Shown: positions 3 to 10,218 of the stretch, piece after piece
How the letters are laid out: the number at the start of each line of letters is the position of its first letter
How positions within the stretch are numbered: position 1 is the first letter of the stretch
From: Deltaproteobacteria bacterium
Lineage (GTDB): Bacteria; Desulfobacterota; DSM-4660; Desulfatiglandales; Desulfatiglandaceae
Reading direction: 5' to 3'
Length of the DNA stretch: 13,280 bases
Assembly (NCBI GenBank): GCA_019314425.1
Contig: JAFCZI010000084.1
Coordinates: 1 to 13,280 of the forward strand
Notes under the pieces: model-generated
Told to the model about the DNA's origin: nothing
What the model saw: the letters and a program-made list of their open reading frames with translations, nothing else
Databases searched by the model: none
Position numbers and translations under genes: made by a program

Positions 3-1433
3 TTTGAGTATCGGTTCAGCGGTTCCATGATTACCAATGAACATTATCAGACGGCGGATCTCATGCTGGTGGATATGGGGGATGATACCTATGCCATTGA
101 GGTGGTGTCGGACGGGGGCAGGGCGTTGCTTCAAGGAAGCGCGGCCGTACCGGCGGATGAACACACTATTAAAAACATCGAAGGGCGAAAGCATGTGGTT
201 CAGGATGAAATCCATCTCTCCATGCCGAGGAAAAGTTTGCCGGCATTCCTGGAAAAACAGCAGCAGTCGAAGGTGATTGATCGGCGTGCGGACCGGTGTT
301 TTTCATGTGGTGCATGTGTTCTGGTCTGTCCTACCTGTTACTGCTTTCACGTGGAAGAGGAGGTGGACCTTTCGCTTCAGGCGGGCCGTCGCACGCGAAG
401 CTGGGATGGGTGTATGCTGGAGGGGTTTGCATCTGCTGCCGGGGGGCATAATTTCAGGGAAACGCCGGCCAATCGGCTTCGTCACCGTATTCTGCGAAAG
501 GGGAAATACCTTCCCGAGCATTTCCATCTGCCCGGCTGCGTCGGGTGCGGTCGGTGCGCGCGGGCCTGTGTGGCGGGCATTGCCTCTCCCCTTGAAATCA
601 TCAACGAGATGAACCGTTCGATCTATCTTCCCGAGGTGGCTATCCTTCAAAAAATCGAAGATATGAATGAAAAGGACCGGTTCTTTGAATTCACCCTGGA
701 AGGCCGCGATCTGGATCACCAGCCCGGGCAATTCGTGGAGTTGTCCATCCCCGGCATCGGGGAAGCCCCCTTTTCCATCTCCTCTTCTCCCACAAAAAAG
801 GGCGGCTTCGAAATGTTGATTCGAAATGTGGGAAAAGTCACCGAAGCGGTTCACCGTCTGGTGCCGGGCGACAAAGTGGGCATTCGAGGTCCCTTCGGCT
901 CTCATTTTGCGCTGGAAAGATACCTTGGGAAGGACCTGCTTTTTATTGCGGGGGGGCTGGGTCTTGCCCCGCTCCGGTCGGCCATCAATTATGTTATGGA
1001 CAAGCGGGAAGATTACGGTCAAGTGATCATCCTTTCAGGGGCCAGGGACCGATCCCAGAGGCTCTTTCCCGAGGAAGTCAAACGGTGGTCCCGGGCGCCG
1101 GATACCCTTGTCCTGGAAACCCTGGACCATGGGGATGCCCAGTGGCCCGGGCAGACCGGCGTTATCACCACCCTGTTCCCCCTAGTGGAAGACCGTATTA
1201 TCCCCTCCAACACCAAGGCGTTCATCGTGGGGCCGCCGATCATGTACCGCTTCGTCATTCAGGAACTGGAAAAGCTGGGTTTTGATCATAAAGACATCCT
1301 GGTGTCACTGGAGCGGCGCATGGAATGTGGTGTGGGAAAATGCGGTCACTGCCAGATCGACGACATCTATGTGTGCCAGGAAGGACCGGTTTTTACCTAT
1401 GATTCAATCCGTGAATCCATGGAGGCGTTATGA
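3..1433 (+). CDS. Fused sulfhydrogenase beta-gamma subunit (Fe-S + FAD/NAD(P) electron-transfer module), 5' end outside window
   Basis: This is the electron-transfer arm of a group 3 [NiFe] hydrogenase, passing electrons between the iron-sulfur clusters and NAD(P) in the cytoplasm. The frame is open to the left edge. The first ATG is at position 27, but the homology to the HydB family already seems under way there, so the true start probably lies upstream. Numbering from that Met, a beta-subunit part (about 1-194) carries C91/C94/C97/C101, then C104/C106, C129, and a second CxxCxxCxxxC at C171/C174/C177/C181. A gamma-subunit part (about 195-468) follows: an FAD-binding barrel with APFSISSSPT at 247-256, a nucleotide-binding GGLGLAP near 309, and a [2Fe-2S] site C434/C439/C442/C450. 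In the Pyrococcus-type enzymes these parts are separate proteins (HydB, HydG). The stop overlaps the next start by 4 bp. Family assignment is confident; the NADP versus NAD preference is not visible. Confidence 0.9.
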   Translation, partial: FEYRFSGSMITNEHYQTADLMLVDMGDDTYAIEVVSDGGRALLQGSAAVPADEHTIKNIEGRKHVVQDEIHLSMPRKSLPAFLEKQQQSKVIDRRADRCFSCGACVLVCPTCYCFHVEEEVDLSLQAGRRTRSWDGCMLEGFASAAGGHNFRETPANRLRHRILRKGKYLPEHFHLPGCVGCGRCARACVAGIASPLEIINEMNRSIYLPEVAILQKIEDMNEKDRFFEFTLEGRDLDHQPGQFVELSIPGIGEAPFSISSSPTKKGGFEMLIRNVGKVTEAVHRLVPGDKVGIRGPFGSHFALERYLGKDLLFIAGGLGLAPLRSAINYVMDKREDYGQVIILSGARDRSQRLFPEEVKRWSRAPDTLVLETLDHGDAQWPGQTGVITTLFPLVEDRIIPSNTKAFIVGPPIMYRFVIQELEKLGFDHKDILVSLERRMECGVGKCGHCQIDDIYVCQEGPVFTYDSIRESMEAL

Positions 1434-2182
1434 GCACGAAACCGAAAGTGGCGTTTTTCGATTTTGCATCCTGCGAAGGGTGTCAGCTTCAAATCGCCAA
1501 TCTGGAAGAGGAAATTATCGATTTGGTGAACCTGGTGGATGTGGTGGAGTTCCGGGAGGTGATGACGGAAAAGGCCCCCGCCTACGACATTGCTTTTATC
1601 GAAGGCTCTATGACCCGGGAAACAGATGAAGCGCGCCTGCGGGATATCCGTGAGCGGTCCGGGCTACTGGTGGCTCTGGGCGCCTGTGCCGCCACCGGTG
1701 GTTTGAACAGACTCAAAAATGTTCGCGGTAACCTCGAACAGGTGAGACGGGATGTGTATGGGAGCGATTGGGATCGTCCCCATCTGGACACCTATGCCAC
1801 CCGGGCCGTTGATGAAGTGGTTAAGGTGGATTTTCACATTCATGGATGCCCCATCAACCGGGAAGAATTCCTCCGGGTGGTGGAAGCCCTCGCATTGGGC
1901 ACAAAGCCTGAAATCCCCGACTATCCCGTGTGCGCGGAATGCAAAATAAAAGAAAATGTGTGCCGCTTTGATCTGGGCGAAATCTGTCTGGGACCCATCG
2001 TTCGCGCCGGCTGTGGGGCGATTTGCCCCAGTAACGGTGTCGGGTGCGAGGGGTGCCGCGGCATTATTCCCCATGCCAACCAGAATGCCATGAAAGACAT
2101 TTTAGCTGAACACAATCTGACCGTGGAACAAATTACTGAAAAATTCAATCTGTTCCCCCTTTACCTGGAGGTGACTCCGTGA
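1430..2182 (+). CDS. hydD: Sulfhydrogenase delta subunit ([NiFe] hydrogenase small subunit)
   Basis: The small subunit of a cytoplasmic group 3 [NiFe] hydrogenase carries electrons from the NiFe site to the flavin arm through [4Fe-4S] clusters. The 250-residue protein belongs to the 20 kDa oxidoreductase family. Proximal-cluster ligands are visible as CEGC (C15, C18), GAC (C86) and HGCP (C140). The C-terminal part has eight further cysteines (C168, C171, C178, C186, C195, C199, C206, C209), enough for two more [4Fe-4S] clusters. There is no twin-arginine signal peptide, which agrees with a cytoplasmic group 3 enzyme rather than an exported uptake hydrogenase. The ATG overlaps the upstream stop as ATGA, and a GGAGG sits 5 nt before it, so translation is probably coupled. 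The symbol follows the HydBGDA naming. Confidence 0.92.
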   Translation: MSTKPKVAFFDFASCEGCQLQIANLEEEIIDLVNLVDVVEFREVMTEKAPAYDIAFIEGSMTRETDEARLRDIRERSGLLVALGACAATGGLNRLKNVRGNLEQVRRDVYGSDWDRPHLDTYATRAVDEVVKVDFHIHGCPINREEFLRVVEALALGTKPEIPDYPVCAECKIKENVCRFDLGEICLGPIVRAGCGAICPSNGVGCEGCRGIIPHANQNAMKDILAEHNLTVEQITEKFNLFPLYLEVTP

Positions 2183-3480
2183 CAGGAAAGTTGATTCGCA
2201 TTGACAACACCCATATTTCAAGGGTGGAAGGCCATGGGAATATCGTGGTGCATATGGCGGGTGACCGTCTTGACCGGGTGGAATGGCAGATCCCCGAAGC
2301 CCCCCGTTTTTTCGAATCCATGGTGGTGGGCAGGGACTGGAGCGAGATCAGCCTGATTACCTCGCGCATCTGCGGCATTTGTTCCATCGGCCATACTTTC
2401 GCGTCCCAGAAGGCCACGGAAGCGGCCATGGGCATCACCATTACGGAACAGACCCGGCGTTTGCGGGAAATTCTCAACCATGCGGAAAATTTGCAGAGCC
2501 ATATCCTCCACGTATGCTACCTGGTGCTGCCGGATCTTCTGGGGGTGGGGAGCGTTTTACCGCTGATCGAAACGAATCGGGACGTGGTGCTTCTGGCCAT
2601 CCGGCTCCATCGGCTGGCCAACGAGACCTGCGACAAAATCGGCGGTCGAACTACGCATCCCATACGGGCTTGTGTTAATGGCTGGAGCATGTTCCCCGAC
2701 AAAAAGACGTTACGGGAAATTCGAGATCACCACGTGACGGCGCTGGAGGACCTCAAAACCCTGGCGGAATTTGTTCAATCCCTTGCCCATAAACTGCCTG
2801 ATTTTGAGCGGGAAACGGAGTACGTCAGCCTGACAAATTCGCTGGACTATGCCCTTTATGACGGTGTCATCAAATCGAGCGATGTGGACGATGTCATACA
2901 ACCTCGGGATTATGAGCGGGTGACCAACGAATATGTGGATGATCGGTCCACGGCCAAATGGACCCGTTTTAACCGGGATGCTTACGCCGTGGGGGCACTG
3001 GCGCGATTCAACAATAACCATTCCCAACTGACCGATGGCGCGAAAGCCATTGCCGCGCAATTGGGGCTTTCAGCACCCTGTCACAACCCCTTCATGAACA
3101 GTGTGGCCCAGGTGGTGGAGTGCGTATTTTCCGCAGAAAAAACCATCGAATATTCACAATGGTTACTGGATAACGGGATCAAGGAAGAGGATAGAGGGTT
3201 TACGGTTCGTGAGGGCCGTGGTGTGGGTGCGGTGGATGTGCCACGGGGGGTCCTGTTCCATGACTACACCTATGATGGAAAAGGGAAATGTGTGGAGGCC
3301 AATCTGGTGATCCCCACCAACCAGAACCATGCCAATATACAGGCGGACATGGCAGCTCTGGTGCCCGTCATAAAGGACATGCCCAGCGAAAAAATAACCC
3401 TGACGCTGGAAATGCTGGTGCGTGCGTATGACCCCTGTATTTCATGCTCAACCCATTGTGTTGATTTGAGAAGATCTTAA
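2179..3480 (+). CDS. hydA: Sulfhydrogenase alpha subunit ([NiFe] hydrogenase large subunit)
   Basis: The catalytic large subunit binds the NiFe(CN)2CO centre and oxidises or evolves H2. In the 433-residue protein the N-terminal nickel motif RICGICSIGH gives ligands C65 and C68 with H72, and the C-terminal motif DPCISCSTH gives C420 and C423 with H426. An RVEGHG motif lies at 15-20. Seven residues follow H426, which fits a short C-terminal peptide removed by a maturation endopeptidase after Ni insertion. No maturation gene (hyp or protease) is in the window. The start is GTG at 2179, overlapping the hydD stop as GTGA, with a strong GGAGGTGA upstream. The four-cysteine set places it as an active [NiFe] enzyme rather than a Complex I-like homologue. 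Group 3b is my best guess for the subtype, from the HydB/HydG-type partners. Confidence 0.93.
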   Translation: MTGKLIRIDNTHISRVEGHGNIVVHMAGDRLDRVEWQIPEAPRFFESMVVGRDWSEISLITSRICGICSIGHTFASQKATEAAMGITITEQTRRLREILNHAENLQSHILHVCYLVLPDLLGVGSVLPLIETNRDVVLLAIRLHRLANETCDKIGGRTTHPIRACVNGWSMFPDKKTLREIRDHHVTALEDLKTLAEFVQSLAHKLPDFERETEYVSLTNSLDYALYDGVIKSSDVDDVIQPRDYERVTNEYVDDRSTAKWTRFNRDAYAVGALARFNNNHSQLTDGAKAIAAQLGLSAPCHNPFMNSVAQVVECVFSAEKTIEYSQWLLDNGIKEEDRGFTVREGRGVGAVDVPRGVLFHDYTYDGKGKCVEANLVIPTNQNHANIQADMAALVPVIKDMPSEKITLTLEMLVRAYDPCISCSTHCVDLRRS

Positions 3481-3735: not shown

Positions 3736-4566
3736 TCAGTCCCGGTTCTTTCGCGCCATGGCCTGCAAATCCTCATTGATGAATTTCCGGGGCACCAACG
3801 TTACCCGCCGGCAATTTCCCAATGGGCTTTCATCCACCAGAAGGGGACACTCGTATGCTTCTTCCAGGGTCTTGAAGGTGAGTACCTCCGCCGGCGGACC
3901 CATTTTAACAATCCGTCCTTTTTTGAGCAGCATTAGGCGGTTACCGTACATGGCCGCCAGGTTGATATCGTGGGATACCATCACAATGGTGAGGTCTTTT
4001 TCCGCCCGCAGCTTTTCCATCAGATCCATGATCCGCACCTGATGGGCCAGATCCAGGGCCGCCGTGGGTTCATCAAGCAGGATGATCTGCGGTTCCTGAC
4101 AGATGGCCCTGGCAATAAATACCCTTTGGCGTTCCCCACCGCTCAACTGATCCATTTTTCGCTCGGCCAGGGGGTCCACTCTTGTAAAGGCCATGGCTTC
4201 TTCAGCCATCTGAATATCCTGATCCCTTTCCAATCCTAAAAGACCCATACGGGGTGCTCGGGCCATGAGGATTAATTCTCTGACGGTAAACGGAAGATCT
4301 TCGGGAACGGTTTGAGGGACCAGGGCCATGATCCTTGCCAGAGAACGTCGGGAGTATTTTGCTATGGGGATCCCTGCAATTTCAAGGGTTCCCTTCTGAA
4401 AATGCGTGATGGCGGACAGGATTTTCAGCAGAGTGGTTTTTCCCGAACCGTTGGGACCGATAACGATGAAAAATTCCCCTTTGGGCACGGAAAAGGAAAC
4501 ATCCTGAAGTACCGACAGGGATCCATAGGCGGCATGCAGGGAGGTGGCTTGGATGGATGGTTTCAT
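3736..4566 (-). CDS. ABC transporter ATP-binding protein, cobalamin/Fe(III)-siderophore type (BtuD/FecE-like)
   Basis: This cytoplasmic ATPase drives import through the permease encoded just upstream of it. The 276-residue protein shows every ABC ATPase motif: Walker A GPNGSGKTT at 37-45, Q-loop Q85, signature LSGGERQ at 141-147, Walker B IILLDEP at 161-167 and switch histidine H199. The roughly 20 to 30 residues at the C terminus are basic and show no domain I recognise. It is the last gene of the three-gene leftward operon, and its ATG overlaps the permease stop by 4 bp (ATGA on the minus strand), implying coupled translation. ATPases of this family cannot be assigned to cobalamin, haem or siderophore on their own; the BtuF-like binding protein favours a corrinoid. 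Confidence 0.93.
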   Translation of the reverse strand: MKPSIQATSLHAAYGSLSVLQDVSFSVPKGEFFIVIGPNGSGKTTLLKILSAITHFQKGTLEIAGIPIAKYSRRSLARIMALVPQTVPEDLPFTVRELILMARAPRMGLLGLERDQDIQMAEEAMAFTRVDPLAERKMDQLSGGERQRVFIARAICQEPQIILLDEPTAALDLAHQVRIMDLMEKLRAEKDLTIVMVSHDINLAAMYGNRLMLLKKGRIVKMGPPAEVLTFKTLEEAYECPLLVDESPLGNCRRVTLVPRKFINEDLQAMARKNRD

Positions 4567-5570
4567 GATGATTTTTTTAACAATATGATGAAAAGGGGTG
4601 CGCCGATCATAGCGGTGACGACGCCGGCGGGCATTTCCCCCTGTTCCGGCAGTGTCCTGGCCAGTATATCACAAAGCACCACGTAGGCGCTCCCCCCCAG
4701 CAGGCAGGCGGGAACCAGCACCCGGTGGTCCGGTCCCACCACAAGCCTCAACAGGTGGGGAATGACCAGCCCCACAAAGCCGATGGGCCCGCAGGCCGCT
4801 ACCGTGGCGCTGACCATGATGGAGGTCGCCACCAGAAGGATTGCGGTGATCACTTTAATGTTAACCCCCATGGTTTGGGCCAGTTCTTTGCCCATGAGAA
4901 AGAGGTTCATGGTATTGGAAAGACAGAAAATCAAAACGGTACAGGGCACCACCACCGCAGTCAGCAGCCAGACCTGTGGAAGGTCCGCCATGGACAGATC
5001 CCCCATGAGCCAGAAGATGATGTTATGAAGACGGTCGTCCTGGGTGATGGATATGAGAAACATGATAAAAGCCCCACAGAACGCATTGACCATGACCCCT
5101 GAAAGAAGAAGGATGTTTTTTTTCAGCATGGTTTTGCCCGACGTCATAAACAGGAGAAGCAACAGGGTGGCCATGCTGCCGACAAAAGCGGCGAGGCTTA
5201 CGCCGGGAAAAGGGGACATGCCCGTCAGGATGCCGATAATGGCCCCGATGCCCGACCCGCTTGAAATGCCCAGAATATAGGGTTCGGCCAGGGGATTCCG
5301 AAGCAGGGCCTGGAAAACCAATCCCCCCAGCGACAGGGCCGCACCGACCAGCATCGCCAGAAATACACGGGGCAGGCGGATGCGCCAGATAATGGTTTCA
5401 AGCATGGCGTCTGCCTTCTCTATGCCGGCAAGAGAGAATAACGTCTCTTTGAAGTTGCTGCCGGTAGATCCCACGGAGATGCCCAGAACCATGGTTACGG
5501 CGAGAACAGAGATGCCCAGAATCAATATGATCCATATGCGTTTTAAAACGCGCGGTCTTTGGGTTTTCAC
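4563..5570 (-). CDS. FecCD-family ABC transporter permease (BtuC-like)
   Basis: This is the inner-membrane channel subunit of a cobalamin/iron-chelate importer, working as a dimer with the ATPase. The 335-residue protein is strongly hydrophobic with about nine to ten membrane segments, matching the usual length of the family. Family landmarks include RLPRVFLAMLVGAALSLGG near residues 64-82, the following LLRNPLAEPYILGISSG segment, and ACGPIGFVGLVIPHLLRL, which includes the GxxGFVGLxxPH coupling region that contacts the ATPase. The start is a GTG whose GTGA overlaps the stop of the upstream binding-protein gene; an AGGA lies about 8 nt before it. The NPLAEP and VGPDHR segments look closest to BtuC-type permeases, but a siderophore permease cannot be excluded. 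Confidence 0.92.
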   Translation of the reverse strand: MKTQRPRVLKRIWIILILGISVLAVTMVLGISVGSTGSNFKETLFSLAGIEKADAMLETIIWRIRLPRVFLAMLVGAALSLGGLVFQALLRNPLAEPYILGISSGSGIGAIIGILTGMSPFPGVSLAAFVGSMATLLLLLFMTSGKTMLKKNILLLSGVMVNAFCGAFIMFLISITQDDRLHNIIFWLMGDLSMADLPQVWLLTAVVVPCTVLIFCLSNTMNLFLMGKELAQTMGVNIKVITAILLVATSIMVSATVAACGPIGFVGLVIPHLLRLVVGPDHRVLVPACLLGGSAYVVLCDILARTLPEQGEMPAGVVTAMIGAPLFIILLKKSS

Positions 5571-6505
5571 GGTTTTTTCCTGTAGAGATCCGGATGAATC
5601 GCTTCAGCAACCTGTTCCAGACCATCAATGAGCCGGGGTGTGGGACGGTCGCAGAGATTGGAATCCAGAAGCAGGATGCGGCTGTCCCGAACAGCGGGCA
5701 TGGAAGGCCATTGGGACCATTGTTTTTTGACATGCTCAAAACTGGCGCCTCTGGCCATGGAGGTGATAATCATGACGTCGGGGGAAAGGCCCAGGACCTG
5801 CTCACGGCTGTACCTTGGGTAGGGCACAGGGCCTTCCGCAAGATTTCTGCCCCCGGCCATGACGATCAATTCGTGAATATAGGTCTGGGTGCCCGCGGAA
5901 ACAATGGGTGAAACGCCGATTTGAAAAAATACACGGGGTTTGTCAGGTGATGTGGCCACCCGGGATTTCACCTGTTCCATACGGGTGCGCATATCGGAAA
6001 CGATGGCTTGCGCCTTTTGGTCGGCGCCCAGGAGACGGCCCATCTGAATGATGGTTTCAAGGATGGCGTTCATGTCTTTGGGATCAACGGCATAGACGGG
6101 TATGCCTAAATGTTCCAGTTTTCTGACCACCGCTATGGGGTTCCCGTCCTTAATGCCGATACAGAGATCCGGTTTCAGGGCAACGATTTTTTCAAGATCC
6201 AGGTGAACATAGGAGCCCACGCTGGGCAGCTTTTCAGCCGCAGCCGGAAAATCACTGAACCGCGAGACACCCTTCAGGAGATCCTCCTTGCCCAGGGCAA
6301 AAATGATTTCAGTAATGCTTGGCGCCAGGGAAACAACCCGTTTGAGGTCGTCCGGCACGGTCATTTTCCGGTCCAGTTCATCCGTCACCACCCGGGCGTT
6401 CGGCTGTTGTCCATGAAGCGCAAAAAGGCCCGTAAGGAAAAAGAAAACACTCAGGAGAACTGTCTTTTTTGCGGTAGCAGTAAGCTGTAAAGCGCGTCGG
6501 CGCAT
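5567..6505 (-). CDS. Periplasmic substrate-binding protein, BtuF-like (corrinoid uptake)
   Basis: This exported binding protein captures the substrate and delivers it to the permease. The 312-residue protein opens with a basic start, a hydrophobic stretch (about 15-29) and a likely signal peptidase I site near FALHG. No lipobox cysteine is present, so it should be soluble in the periplasm. The TroA/BtuF-type fold is indicated by RVVSLAPSITEIIFALG near 61-77, the KPDLCIGI region and a PRYSREQVLGLSPDVMIITS segment. The C-terminal RPTPRLIDGLEQVAEAIHP resembles cobalamin-binding members, so a corrinoid substrate is likely but not proven. It is first in the operon, with GAGAGGG 4 nt before the ATG. 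Its promoter faces away from thrS. Corrinoids would suit an anaerobe, since Wood-Ljungdahl and methyltransferase enzymes use them. Confidence 0.88.
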   Translation of the reverse strand: MRRRALQLTATAKKTVLLSVFFFLTGLFALHGQQPNARVVTDELDRKMTVPDDLKRVVSLAPSITEIIFALGKEDLLKGVSRFSDFPAAAEKLPSVGSYVHLDLEKIVALKPDLCIGIKDGNPIAVVRKLEHLGIPVYAVDPKDMNAILETIIQMGRLLGADQKAQAIVSDMRTRMEQVKSRVATSPDKPRVFFQIGVSPIVSAGTQTYIHELIVMAGGRNLAEGPVPYPRYSREQVLGLSPDVMIITSMARGASFEHVKKQWSQWPSMPAVRDSRILLLDSNLCDRPTPRLIDGLEQVAEAIHPDLYRKKP

Positions 6506-6856: not shown

Positions 6857-8425
6857 ATGGAAGTATTTTCTGTCGGTATAAAAGGGAAGGATGTTCACCA
6901 GGTGGAGGCGGAAACCCTTTCGGTTGCCGAGGCGCTGGAACATCTGAAAGTGGGTGGACTGGACCGTGTGGTGGCGGTGAAGGTGAATGGGATCCCCTGC
7001 GATCTTTCGGCTGAGATAGGTCCGGATACGGAGCTGGAACCCATTTACCTGCATTCTGATGAGGGCTTGGAAATCCTTCGACACAGCACTTCACATGTGA
7101 TGGCCATGGCCGTTAGAGAACTCTTCCCCGGCGTGAAAGTGACCATCGGACCCGCCGTGAAAGATGGGTTCTATTACGATTTTGATTACGAACGGCCTTT
7201 CCGGGAGGATGATCTTCCGCGTGTGGAAGAAAAGATGAAGGAGATTATTAAAGCGAATCTCCCCTTTGCCAGAAAAGAGATGGTTGTTTCGGAAGCAGTG
7301 GCGTTTTTCAAAGCGCAGGGTGAGGATTACAAGGTTGAACTCATCGAAGACCTTGGGGTTGAGACGGTCTCCCTTTACACCCAGGGGAATTTTACGGACC
7401 TGTGTCTCGGGCCGCATATTCCTTCCACCGGTATGATTAAGGCGTTTCATTTGGTTAAGGTGGCGGGTGCATACTGGCGGGGCGATGAACATCGGCCCAT
7501 GCTGAGTCGCATATACGGTGTGGGTTTTTCCGACCGGAAGCAGTTGAAAAAGCATCTCCACATGTTGGAGGAGGCCCGAAAACGGAATCATGTGAAGCTC
7601 GGGACTCAGCTGGAGCTTTTCAGTACCCATGAAGAAGTGGGTGCGGGAATGGTTGTCTGGCACCCCAACGGCGCTATGTTGCGTTACCTTCTGGAGGATT
7701 TTGAGATTTCGGAGCATCTCAAAAGGGGCTATGAACTGGCGAAAGGCCCGGAAATCCTGAAGACGGACCTGTGGAAAAAATCCGGGCATTTTGACAATTA
7801 CCGCGAAAACATGTACTTTACCGAGATTGATGGGCTGTCCTATGGTATAAAACCCATGAATTGCCTTTCCCATATGCTGATTTACGGTTCCAAAATCAGA
7901 AGTTATCGTGACTTGCCCAAGCGGTATTTTGAATTGGGAACGGTCCACAGACACGAGCGGTCAGGGGTTTTGAACGGTCTTTTCCGGGTTCGGGAATTTA
8001 CCCAGGATGACGCTCACATTCTCTGTACGCCCGAGCAGCTCAATGGTGAGATCAAAGGTGTCCTTGATTTTGTTAAAGACGTGATGGGGATTTTTCAGTT
8101 CGATTATGAATTGGAAATCAGTACACGCCCCGAAAAATCCATCGGCTCCGATGAGGACTGGGAACTGGCTACCGAGGCGCTTATCAAAGCCATGGATGAG
8201 CTTCAATTGAACTATGAGATTAATGAAGGCGATGGCGCTTTTTACGGTCCCAAGATTGATGTCAAGCTTGAGGATGCTTTGGGTCGAAAATGGCAGTGCG
8301 CAACTATCCAGTGTGACTTCACACTTCCTGAAAAATTTGATTTGGCCTTTATTGGAAGAGATGGAGGAAAACACCGGCCTGTTATGATTCACCGGGTTTC
8401 ACCGGGTGATACTCGGCGCTATTGA
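6857..8425 (+). CDS. thrS: ThrRS N-terminal part as read in frame (TGS, editing and most of the catalytic domain)
   Basis: The 522-codon frame holds, in order, a TGS-like N-terminal domain (about 1-66), the editing domain with its HxxxH at H76/H80 and a second pair C183/H187, and most of the class II catalytic domain. The zinc ligands that recognise threonine align as C336, H387 and H512, and motif 2 lies near [10 protein letters not shown] (358-367). The last nine codons after R513 (VSPGDTRRY) are out of frame and not ThrRS-like. Motif 3, with its catalytic arginine, and the anticodon-binding domain are missing. On its own the product could fold its editing domain but should not aminoacylate. 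Confidence 0.8.
8388..8407 (+). repeat. Exact 10-bp tandem duplication inside thrS
   Basis: TTCACCGGGT is present twice with no mismatch and no spacer. It sits between the codons for the zinc-binding histidine (H512) and catalytic motif 3. The extra 10 bp shift the reading frame; with one copy the ThrRS frame is continuous. Confidence 0.95.
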
Positions 8426-8789
8426 GCGATTTATCGGTGTTTTGATAGAGCATTATGCCGGTGCGTTTCCCACATGGCTGGCTCCGGTACAGGCCACCCT
8501 CCTTACGGTGACAGACCGAAATATTCCGTTTGGTGAAAAGATGGCTGAAGCACTTCTGACGGCAGGTATTCGGGTGGTGTCCGATTTCAGAAATGAAAAG
8601 TTGGGTCTCAAGGTGCGGGAGGCCCAGTTAAAAAAGATCCCTTATATGTTGATTATTGGGGATAAAGAATGCGATAATGGTGGCGTAACCCCGAGGAAAA
8701 GGAATGGTCAGAATCTCTCTTTGATGGGGGCAAATGAGTTTATTGACCTGATTACCGAGGAGTGCAAGCAGAGGAGGGAATGGCAATAA
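8406..8789 (+). CDS. thrS: ThrRS C-terminal part (motif 3 and anticodon-binding domain) in the shifted frame
   Basis: This 127-codon frame supplies the missing end of Thr[12 protein letters not shown] matches motif 3 (E. coli ILGSMERFIG), and the rest is the class II anticodon-binding domain, with [20 protein letters not shown] and [13 protein letters not shown] typical of ThrRS. A GTG at 8406 could serve as a start, but no Shine-Dalgarno sequence lies at a useful distance; the nearest GGAGG is about 35-40 nt upstream. I therefore think it is normally translated as part of full-length ThrRS rather than as a separate protein. Its TAA overlaps the start region of infC. Confidence 0.7.
8771..8789 (+). 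promoter_or_regulatory. infC ribosome binding site and start region overlapping the thrS stop
   Basis: GAGGAGGG (8771-8778) is a strong Shine-Dalgarno sequence. The AGGAGG core lies only 2 nt before the ATG at 8780 but 8 nt before the in-frame ATA at 8786, whose last two bases start the thrS TAA (8787-8789). The spacing favours initiation at ATA, a rare start of the kind infC uses in other bacteria; codon identity favours ATG. Confidence 0.5.
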
Positions 8790-9304
8790 GAAAAAAATCT
8801 GACGACGTAAGGATCAATGAGAAGATCCGTTCCGAGAAAGTGAGACTGATCTCCGCTGAAGGAGAGCAGTTGGGAATTTTGTCTCTTGAGGACGCTCTGA
8901 ATGGGGCCAAGGATGTAGGGTTGGACCTGGTTGAGGTCGCGCCGAATTCAGATCCACCGGTTTGCCGTGTGATGGATTATGGTAAGTTCCGGTATGAAGC
9001 AAGCAAGAAAGTTCAGGAGGCGCGCAAGAAAACCCGGGGCGGCCAGATGAAGGAAATTAAACTTCGGCCTCATACTGAAGATCATGATCTTGGGTTTAAG
9101 ATCAAGAACCTCAGGAAATTCCTGGATAAAAAACACCGGGTGAAAGTCAGTGTCTTTTTCCGTGGTCGGGAGATGGCGTTTATGAAAGCCGGCGACGATC
9201 TTTTAAAACGCGTGGCTGAAGAAGTATCGGAAATCGGAACCGTAGACCAGCCTCCTTCCAGGGAGGCCCGGAATCGAATGACCATGGTCATTGTTCCGAG
9301 ATAA
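8780..9304 (+). CDS. infC: Translation initiation factor IF-3
   Basis: IF-3 binds the 30S subunit, prevents premature joining of 50S, and checks the start codon and initiator tRNA. The 174-residue protein (from the ATG at 8780) has the full two-domain layout. The N-terminal domain carries DVRINEKIR and the conserved [20 protein letters not shown], a basic linker follows, and the C-terminal domain contains [13 protein letters not shown] and FFRGREMAF. Length matches the family (E. coli 180). A GTG at 8762 lies further upstream in frame, but it precedes the Shine-Dalgarno sequence and is unlikely. An ATA at 8786 is a serious alternative start that would remove two residues and fits the known self-regulation of infC through rare initiation codons. 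The start overlaps the end of thrS, so expression is tied to thrS translation. Confidence 0.95.
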
Positions 9305-9338: not shown

Positions 9339-9370
9339 CAGTAGAGACAAGGCGTGCCTTGTCTCTACTG
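9339..9370. repeat. Perfect 32-bp palindrome between infC and rpmI
   Basis: Two 15-bp arms (9339-9353 and 9356-9370) are exact reverse complements around GT. The core GTAGAGACAAGGC facing GCCTTGTCTCTAC resembles a class of palindromic dispersed repeats built on GTAGAGAC...GTCTCTAC that I recall from other bacterial genomes. There is no following T-run, so it does not look like a simple terminator. In the mRNA it would form a tight hairpin between infC and rpmI and could affect RNA stability or readthrough. Confidence 0.85.
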
Positions 9371-10187: not shown

Positions 10188-10218
10188 CGGTGCGCCGGGT
10201 GGACAAGGGCCTAACACT

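Follow-up and report, generated by a model that had tools for sequence, protein, structure and literature searches.

In V. fischeri ES114 v1.0, a wrongly split thrS was corrected, and split essential genes were proven by resequencing to be errors (PMC2330054). The same assembly also had false tandem sequence of 318-1264 bp derived from contig ends, and the available part of that report enters the thrS correction as a plain frameshift, not as an expansion (PMC2330054). Many putative bacterial pseudogenes have likewise been attributed to assembly errors; in the accessible portion of that study, the causal link from technical factors to frameshifts is weak (read coverage only, 37% confidence) and that to internal stops is stronger (PMC11017572). 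Frame changes overcome in translation have also been described: excerpts of the respective reports give an intrinsic suppression of 5% for a +1 frameshift in E. coli rpoB (PMC7022156) and the bypassing of frame-disrupting blocks in Magnusiomyces mitochondria (PMC5009743).

Here we describe a window of 13,280 nucleotides, the entire contig C30 of a draft genome (2.81 Mb, 475 contigs, 80.22% complete, 5.19% contaminated), in which the threonyl-tRNA synthetase (ThrRS) gene thrS is divided between two reading frames at a 10-bp tandem repeat (Table 1). The genus of this genome appears to include delta proteobacterium NaphS2, to judge from the thrS coordinates of genome G004, which are those of locus L033.

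Table 1. Features at and next to the thrS break, in positions of the window
Feature	Position	Strand	Basis
thrS upstream part, 522 aa	6857..8425	+	ORF; TIGR00418 profile positions 1-449; homologues up to 93% identical
TGA in downstream frame	8385..8387	+	read from sequence
Copy 1 of TTCACCGGGT	8388..8397	+	sequence, repeat search
Copy 2 of TTCACCGGGT, exact tandem	8398..8407	+	10-base gap at this point in the L031 and L032 alignments
thrS downstream part, +1 frame, 127 aa from a mechanical GTG	8406..8789	+	ORF; TIGR00418 positions 447-565
infC (IF-3), next gene, open throughout	8762..9304	+	ORF; TIGR00168, 209.3 bits

The two copies of TTCACCGGGT are 100% identical and stand in perfect tandem at a spacing of 10, as the initial annotation had described for 8388-8407. 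The tandem extends over 10 + 10 matching bases with 0 matching bases outside, and the duplicated 20-mer has a single occurrence across the whole window. Among 400 simulated sequences matched to the length and dinucleotide make-up of the window, 7 contained a perfect tandem of period 10 and 11 contained any perfect tandem with a period of 10-40. Because a period-10 tandem arises at this rate, the repeat taken alone is only mildly unusual. In DNA alignments, loci L031 and L032 each show a gap of exactly the 10 duplicated bases, and since both align in this way, the 10 bases are an insertion relative to them. This gap is the sole one inside thrS in the L031 alignment; that of L032 also shows 2-base gaps, a cancelling pair at 6988/7001 and one at the edge of the start codon, which we take as alignment effects. 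What gives the repeat its meaning, to judge from these alignments, is the exact 10-base gap in L031 and L032 and not the repeat itself.

The upstream frame runs from an ATG at 6857 to a TGA at 8423-8425, and both motif 3 (ILGAIERF) and the anticodon-binding domain lie in the downstream, +1 frame, which bears out the earlier observation that the frame ends at 8425 without motif 3. The NCBIfam thrS profile TIGR00418 (565 positions) is matched by the upstream part with 537.6 bits and by the downstream part with 135.2 bits, that is, in two pieces and two frames and not along its full length in a single open frame. Since the two parts cover positions 1-449 and 447-565, the predicted enzyme is complete apart from frame continuity, and the arithmetic by which a single copy of the unit would give a 640-residue ThrRS holds. 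The upstream part presumably comprises the N-terminal domain, the editing domain and most of the catalytic domain. The residues H76, H80, C183 and H187 and the residues C336, H387 and H512, which we take to be the editing and zinc residues of ThrRS, are all present and invariant in an alignment of 10 sequences, so the claim that these key residues are kept is confirmed. Over its last eight residues, SPGDTRRY, the upstream part loses register with the nine aligned homologues.

Of the genes that follow, infC, rplT and pheS have open frames and family matches, and pheS is followed by a putative pheT-like frame, named by reading its translation, that runs off the contig end. The true start of infC is probably the ATG at 8780, which would overlap the end of thrS. 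Between infC and rplT, at 9341-9368, lies a near-perfect palindrome, GTAGAGACAAGGCGTGCCTTGTCTCTAC, which is a dispersed repeat. With at most 2 mismatches it is present in 5 of the 21 genomes searched (7 places in the source genome, 5 in G002, 36 in G042 and 1 each in G001 and G037), and the reversed control gave 0. At the other end of the window (3-3480), three overlapping genes resemble an iron-sulfur/flavin-reductase fusion and the small and large subunits of a nickel-iron hydrogenase, and they are followed at 3736-6505 by a convergent set of substrate-binding, permease and ATPase genes for a transporter of the cobalamin or iron kind. The hydrogenase and permease names come from translations read by eye, and the other two transporter genes were profile-searched.

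A comparison of thrS with close relatives had been proposed from the outset. The exact 20-mer was found in one of the 61 genomes searched, the window's own, and thus in none of the 60 relatives, as would be expected of an assembly artefact. Matches with 2 mismatches occur in G017 and G055, in both cases on contigs other than that of their thrS. In 48 of the 60 relatives the gene occupies an open frame 636 aa or longer; the remaining 12 comprise five with partial pieces (G004, G008, G028, G029 and G060), three with weak matches (E > 1e-4; G031, G034 and G050) and four without a match (G001, G039, G041 and G048). G015 is counted within the 48 despite a TAG inside its match. At that locus (L030, minus strand) the ATG-started ORF measures 617 aa, below the usual length; we take this one TAG to lie near the N-terminus, and it is possibly another draft error. 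Two full-length thrS genes were found together in none of the 60 relatives. In G008, partial thrS pieces on two contigs (C15 and C177) match overlapping stretches of the query (3-342 and 237-521) at 75% and 86% identity and may represent a second thrS or a contaminant.

Protein homologues gave a similar picture. Among the best 120 listed of 8000 scored, 119 are longer than 600 aa, the exception being a truncated NaphS2 record, and the motif 3 region is kept in 39 of the 40 nearest. The nearest of these 120 are 93% identical; therefore, no other member of the same species is seen among them. A near-DNA search of a plasmid collection returned 0 matches. From these comparisons the duplication looks private to the source genome.

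Both halves of thrS look constrained when set against their homologues. Where 95% or more of 119 homologues share a residue, the window shows 0 departures in either half. Lowering the threshold to 90% gives 2 departures for the N-half and 0 for the C-half; the other homologues average 4.20 and 1.04, respectively. The ratio of C-half to N-half divergence has a median of 1.35 for the window (19 of the 39 nearest homologues passing the distance filter) and likewise of 1.35 for intact relatives (324 pairs). Ka/Ks amounts to 0.105 for the C-half and 0.060 for the N-half against L031, and to 0.134 and 0.094 against L032; the higher values of the C-half are explained by its being the faster part in intact relatives too, as the ratio control indicates. 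These were the only two of the 7 input loci with values usable for both halves: L033 stops within the gene, L037 and the C-half of L034 were saturated, and L005 and L006 were badly aligned. The residue change H373N is no oddity, N being found in 38 of the 119 homologues. No sign of the relaxed constraint that would follow the break in a decaying pseudogene was seen in either half, and the break is therefore either extremely young or absent from the organism. A chimeric origin from two lineages, with the repeat as the junction, was also rejected; both halves stand at about the distances from the same relatives that are seen for intact genes.

The search for a second thrS, another check suggested at the start, found none in the source genome with either half as query, a result that speaks for an artefact within the bounds set by 80.22% completeness and by the 43 of 80 sampled contigs that are all-N. 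PF00587 is matched at 4 places in this genome, with an internal stop only at that of the window. A further C-half match, on C36 (31% identity), was rejected as a second thrS; its 583-aa frame is matched by PF00587 as well, and we take it for another class II synthetase.

We also surveyed the draft for comparable events. In 346,147 readable bases of the source genome, one of the 13 tandem repeats of at least 8 bases breaks a gene, that of the window itself, and other frame-breaking tandem joins number 0. The controls gave 0 in 244,453 bases of G003, 0 in 213,129 bases of G002 and 0 in 683,961 bases of 80 thrS loci, the last being a kinder sample made up of DNA around thrS from the best 80 of 476 loci. 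Two 'breaks' scored under a looser rule, in L122 and L135, fell where long intact ORFs run on the opposite strand and disappeared under a stricter one. Elsewhere in the source genome, a 38-bp tandem unit with 39 matching bases (L149:1662) and a 21-bp unit in nearly three copies, also with 39 matching bases (L145:6659), break no gene under the stricter rule. A scan for frame changes produced 3 candidates in 31,145 covered bases of the source genome, a rate biased by the choice of the window for its break, and 0 in the covered bases of G003 (20,496) and G002 (17,234). One candidate, a minus-strand ORF near 10200 that covers rplT/pheS, was judged to be spurious antisense. The two retained are thrS itself and a site, seen with one query only, at an 11-N run where a relative has 5 more bases; we take this run for an estimated join, and it could also be a withheld stretch.

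We consider an assembly error to be the most likely origin of the thrS break, and hold this with moderate confidence. The second TTCACCGGGT copy would not be in the DNA of the organism and would have arisen on assembling a fragmented draft, probably when contig or read ends overlapping by these 10 bases were set end to end without being merged; in that case, the real locus would have a normal thrS ahead of infC, rplT, pheS and pheT. An error is favoured because the tandem comprises 10 + 10 bases and none beyond, as in an unmerged overlap, because of the draft state of the genome, including the other frame change at the 11-N run, and because thrS is normally essential and no second copy was found. 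Precedents are the V. fischeri thrS and the pseudogenes put down to assembly errors (PMC2330054, PMC11017572). Against it, the V. fischeri expansions were far longer than 10 bp and its thrS correction was not one of them, and the published causal link to frameshifts is weak. The readable sample holds no further tandem break, so that a systematic tandem-join error lacks support, and the conservation of the C-half would fit a very young real mutation equally well. Such a mutation is the main rival: a real 10-bp tandem duplication of very recent date, whose carriers either do not grow or possess a second threonyl-tRNA synthetase, encoded in the missing part of the genome. Short tandem duplications are an ordinary class of mutation, and the constraint on both halves is compatible with youth. 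A 4-base direct repeat, TGAT (8385-8388 and 8407-8410), flanks the site and might favour slippage, but slippage of the simple kind from one copy to the other would insert 12 bases and not 10. In a genome of this completeness, with so many all-N contigs in the sample, a second thrS could have been missed, and the overlapping pieces in G008 leave room for one in the family; however, no relative has two full-length genes, and an allele that is lethal would probably not prevail in a metagenomic consensus. On balance, a real mutation seems to us possible but rather improbable. The initial annotation had named an artefact or a very recent mutation as explanations; this pair fits the 20-mer count in relatives, the constrained halves and the search for a second thrS.

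The remaining alternatives take the two-copy state as functional. The break might be overcome in translation, by a +1 frameshift or by a 10-nt hop from copy 1 to copy 2, to give a normal ThrRS. Because of the TGA at 8385-8387 in the downstream frame, any ribosomal +1 change would be confined to 8388-8425, where the codons from 8387 read ATT CAC CGG GTT TCA CCG GGT GAT ACT CGG CGC TAT TGA. As read from the sequence, this interval contains no CCC codon, no homopolymer longer than three and no recognised +1 slippery motif, and we take it to lack a prfB-like site as well. Local RNA folding is unexceptional (z -1.85, equalled or exceeded in stability by 12 of 200 shuffles). A programmed +1 frameshift or bypass would show conservation together with a slippery site or a stimulatory structure, a combination not found here; nothing in an arrangement seen in 0 of 60 relatives suggests an evolved feature. 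In favour of recoding, the tandem places the same codons, CAC and CGG, in both frames at a distance of 10 nt, a +1 frameshift in an essential gene can be survived through intrinsic suppression, as described for E. coli rpoB (PMC7022156), and bypassing is known from Magnusiomyces mitochondria (PMC5009743, likewise from excerpts). Among the titles searched, no paper titled on threonyl-tRNA synthetase recoding was found. The earlier idea that the break is overcome in expression thus gained no positive support from motif or fold; we regard it as highly improbable, and its specific form, in which ribosomes would hop 10 nt between identical codons in a minimal bypass within a bacterial housekeeping gene, as more improbable still. 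The gene might instead encode a two-piece ThrRS, in which reinitiation near GTG 8406 would yield a fragment that joins the upstream one; alternatively, the 10-bp tandem might act as a reversible switch. The GTG does lie near the upstream stop, and constraint is apparent in both pieces, but the break sits immediately ahead of motif 3 in the catalytic core, the upstream piece has an out-of-register end, and the two-copy state is absent from relatives, 48 of which have the gene in one long frame. The copy number variation of a phase-variable repeat was not observed among the 60 relatives (none of the same species), and the near-matches in G017 and G055 lie away from thrS contigs, so the switch proposed initially is not upheld. 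We attach hardly any probability to a two-piece enzyme or a switch, and recoding, split enzyme and switch remain very unlikely even when considered jointly.

If the break is an assembly error, as we think most likely, an essential gene disrupted in one draft genome only is in the first place a quality signal. If it is real, a free-living bacterium would tolerate a thrS frame break, and a mechanism of suppression or bypass would be called for. Compared with known systems, the window shares with E. coli rpoB a frame change within an essential gene; however, the excerpted rpoB report concerns a live strain with suppression on a heptanucleotide, for which tRNA-Pro slippage on CCC was assessed (PMC7022156), whereas the thrS of the window has no CCC codon and is known from draft sequence alone. 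With V. fischeri ES114 v1.0 it has in common an essential thrS split by a frame-changing difference, but the false tandems given in the available part of that report are far longer than the 10 bp found here and were proven by resequencing, whereas the error in the window is inferred (PMC2330054). Like bacterial threonyl-tRNA synthetases of TIGR00418, the two pieces of the window jointly span positions 1-565 of 565 of the profile, and they differ from them in that 10 additional bases interrupt the frame immediately ahead of motif 3.
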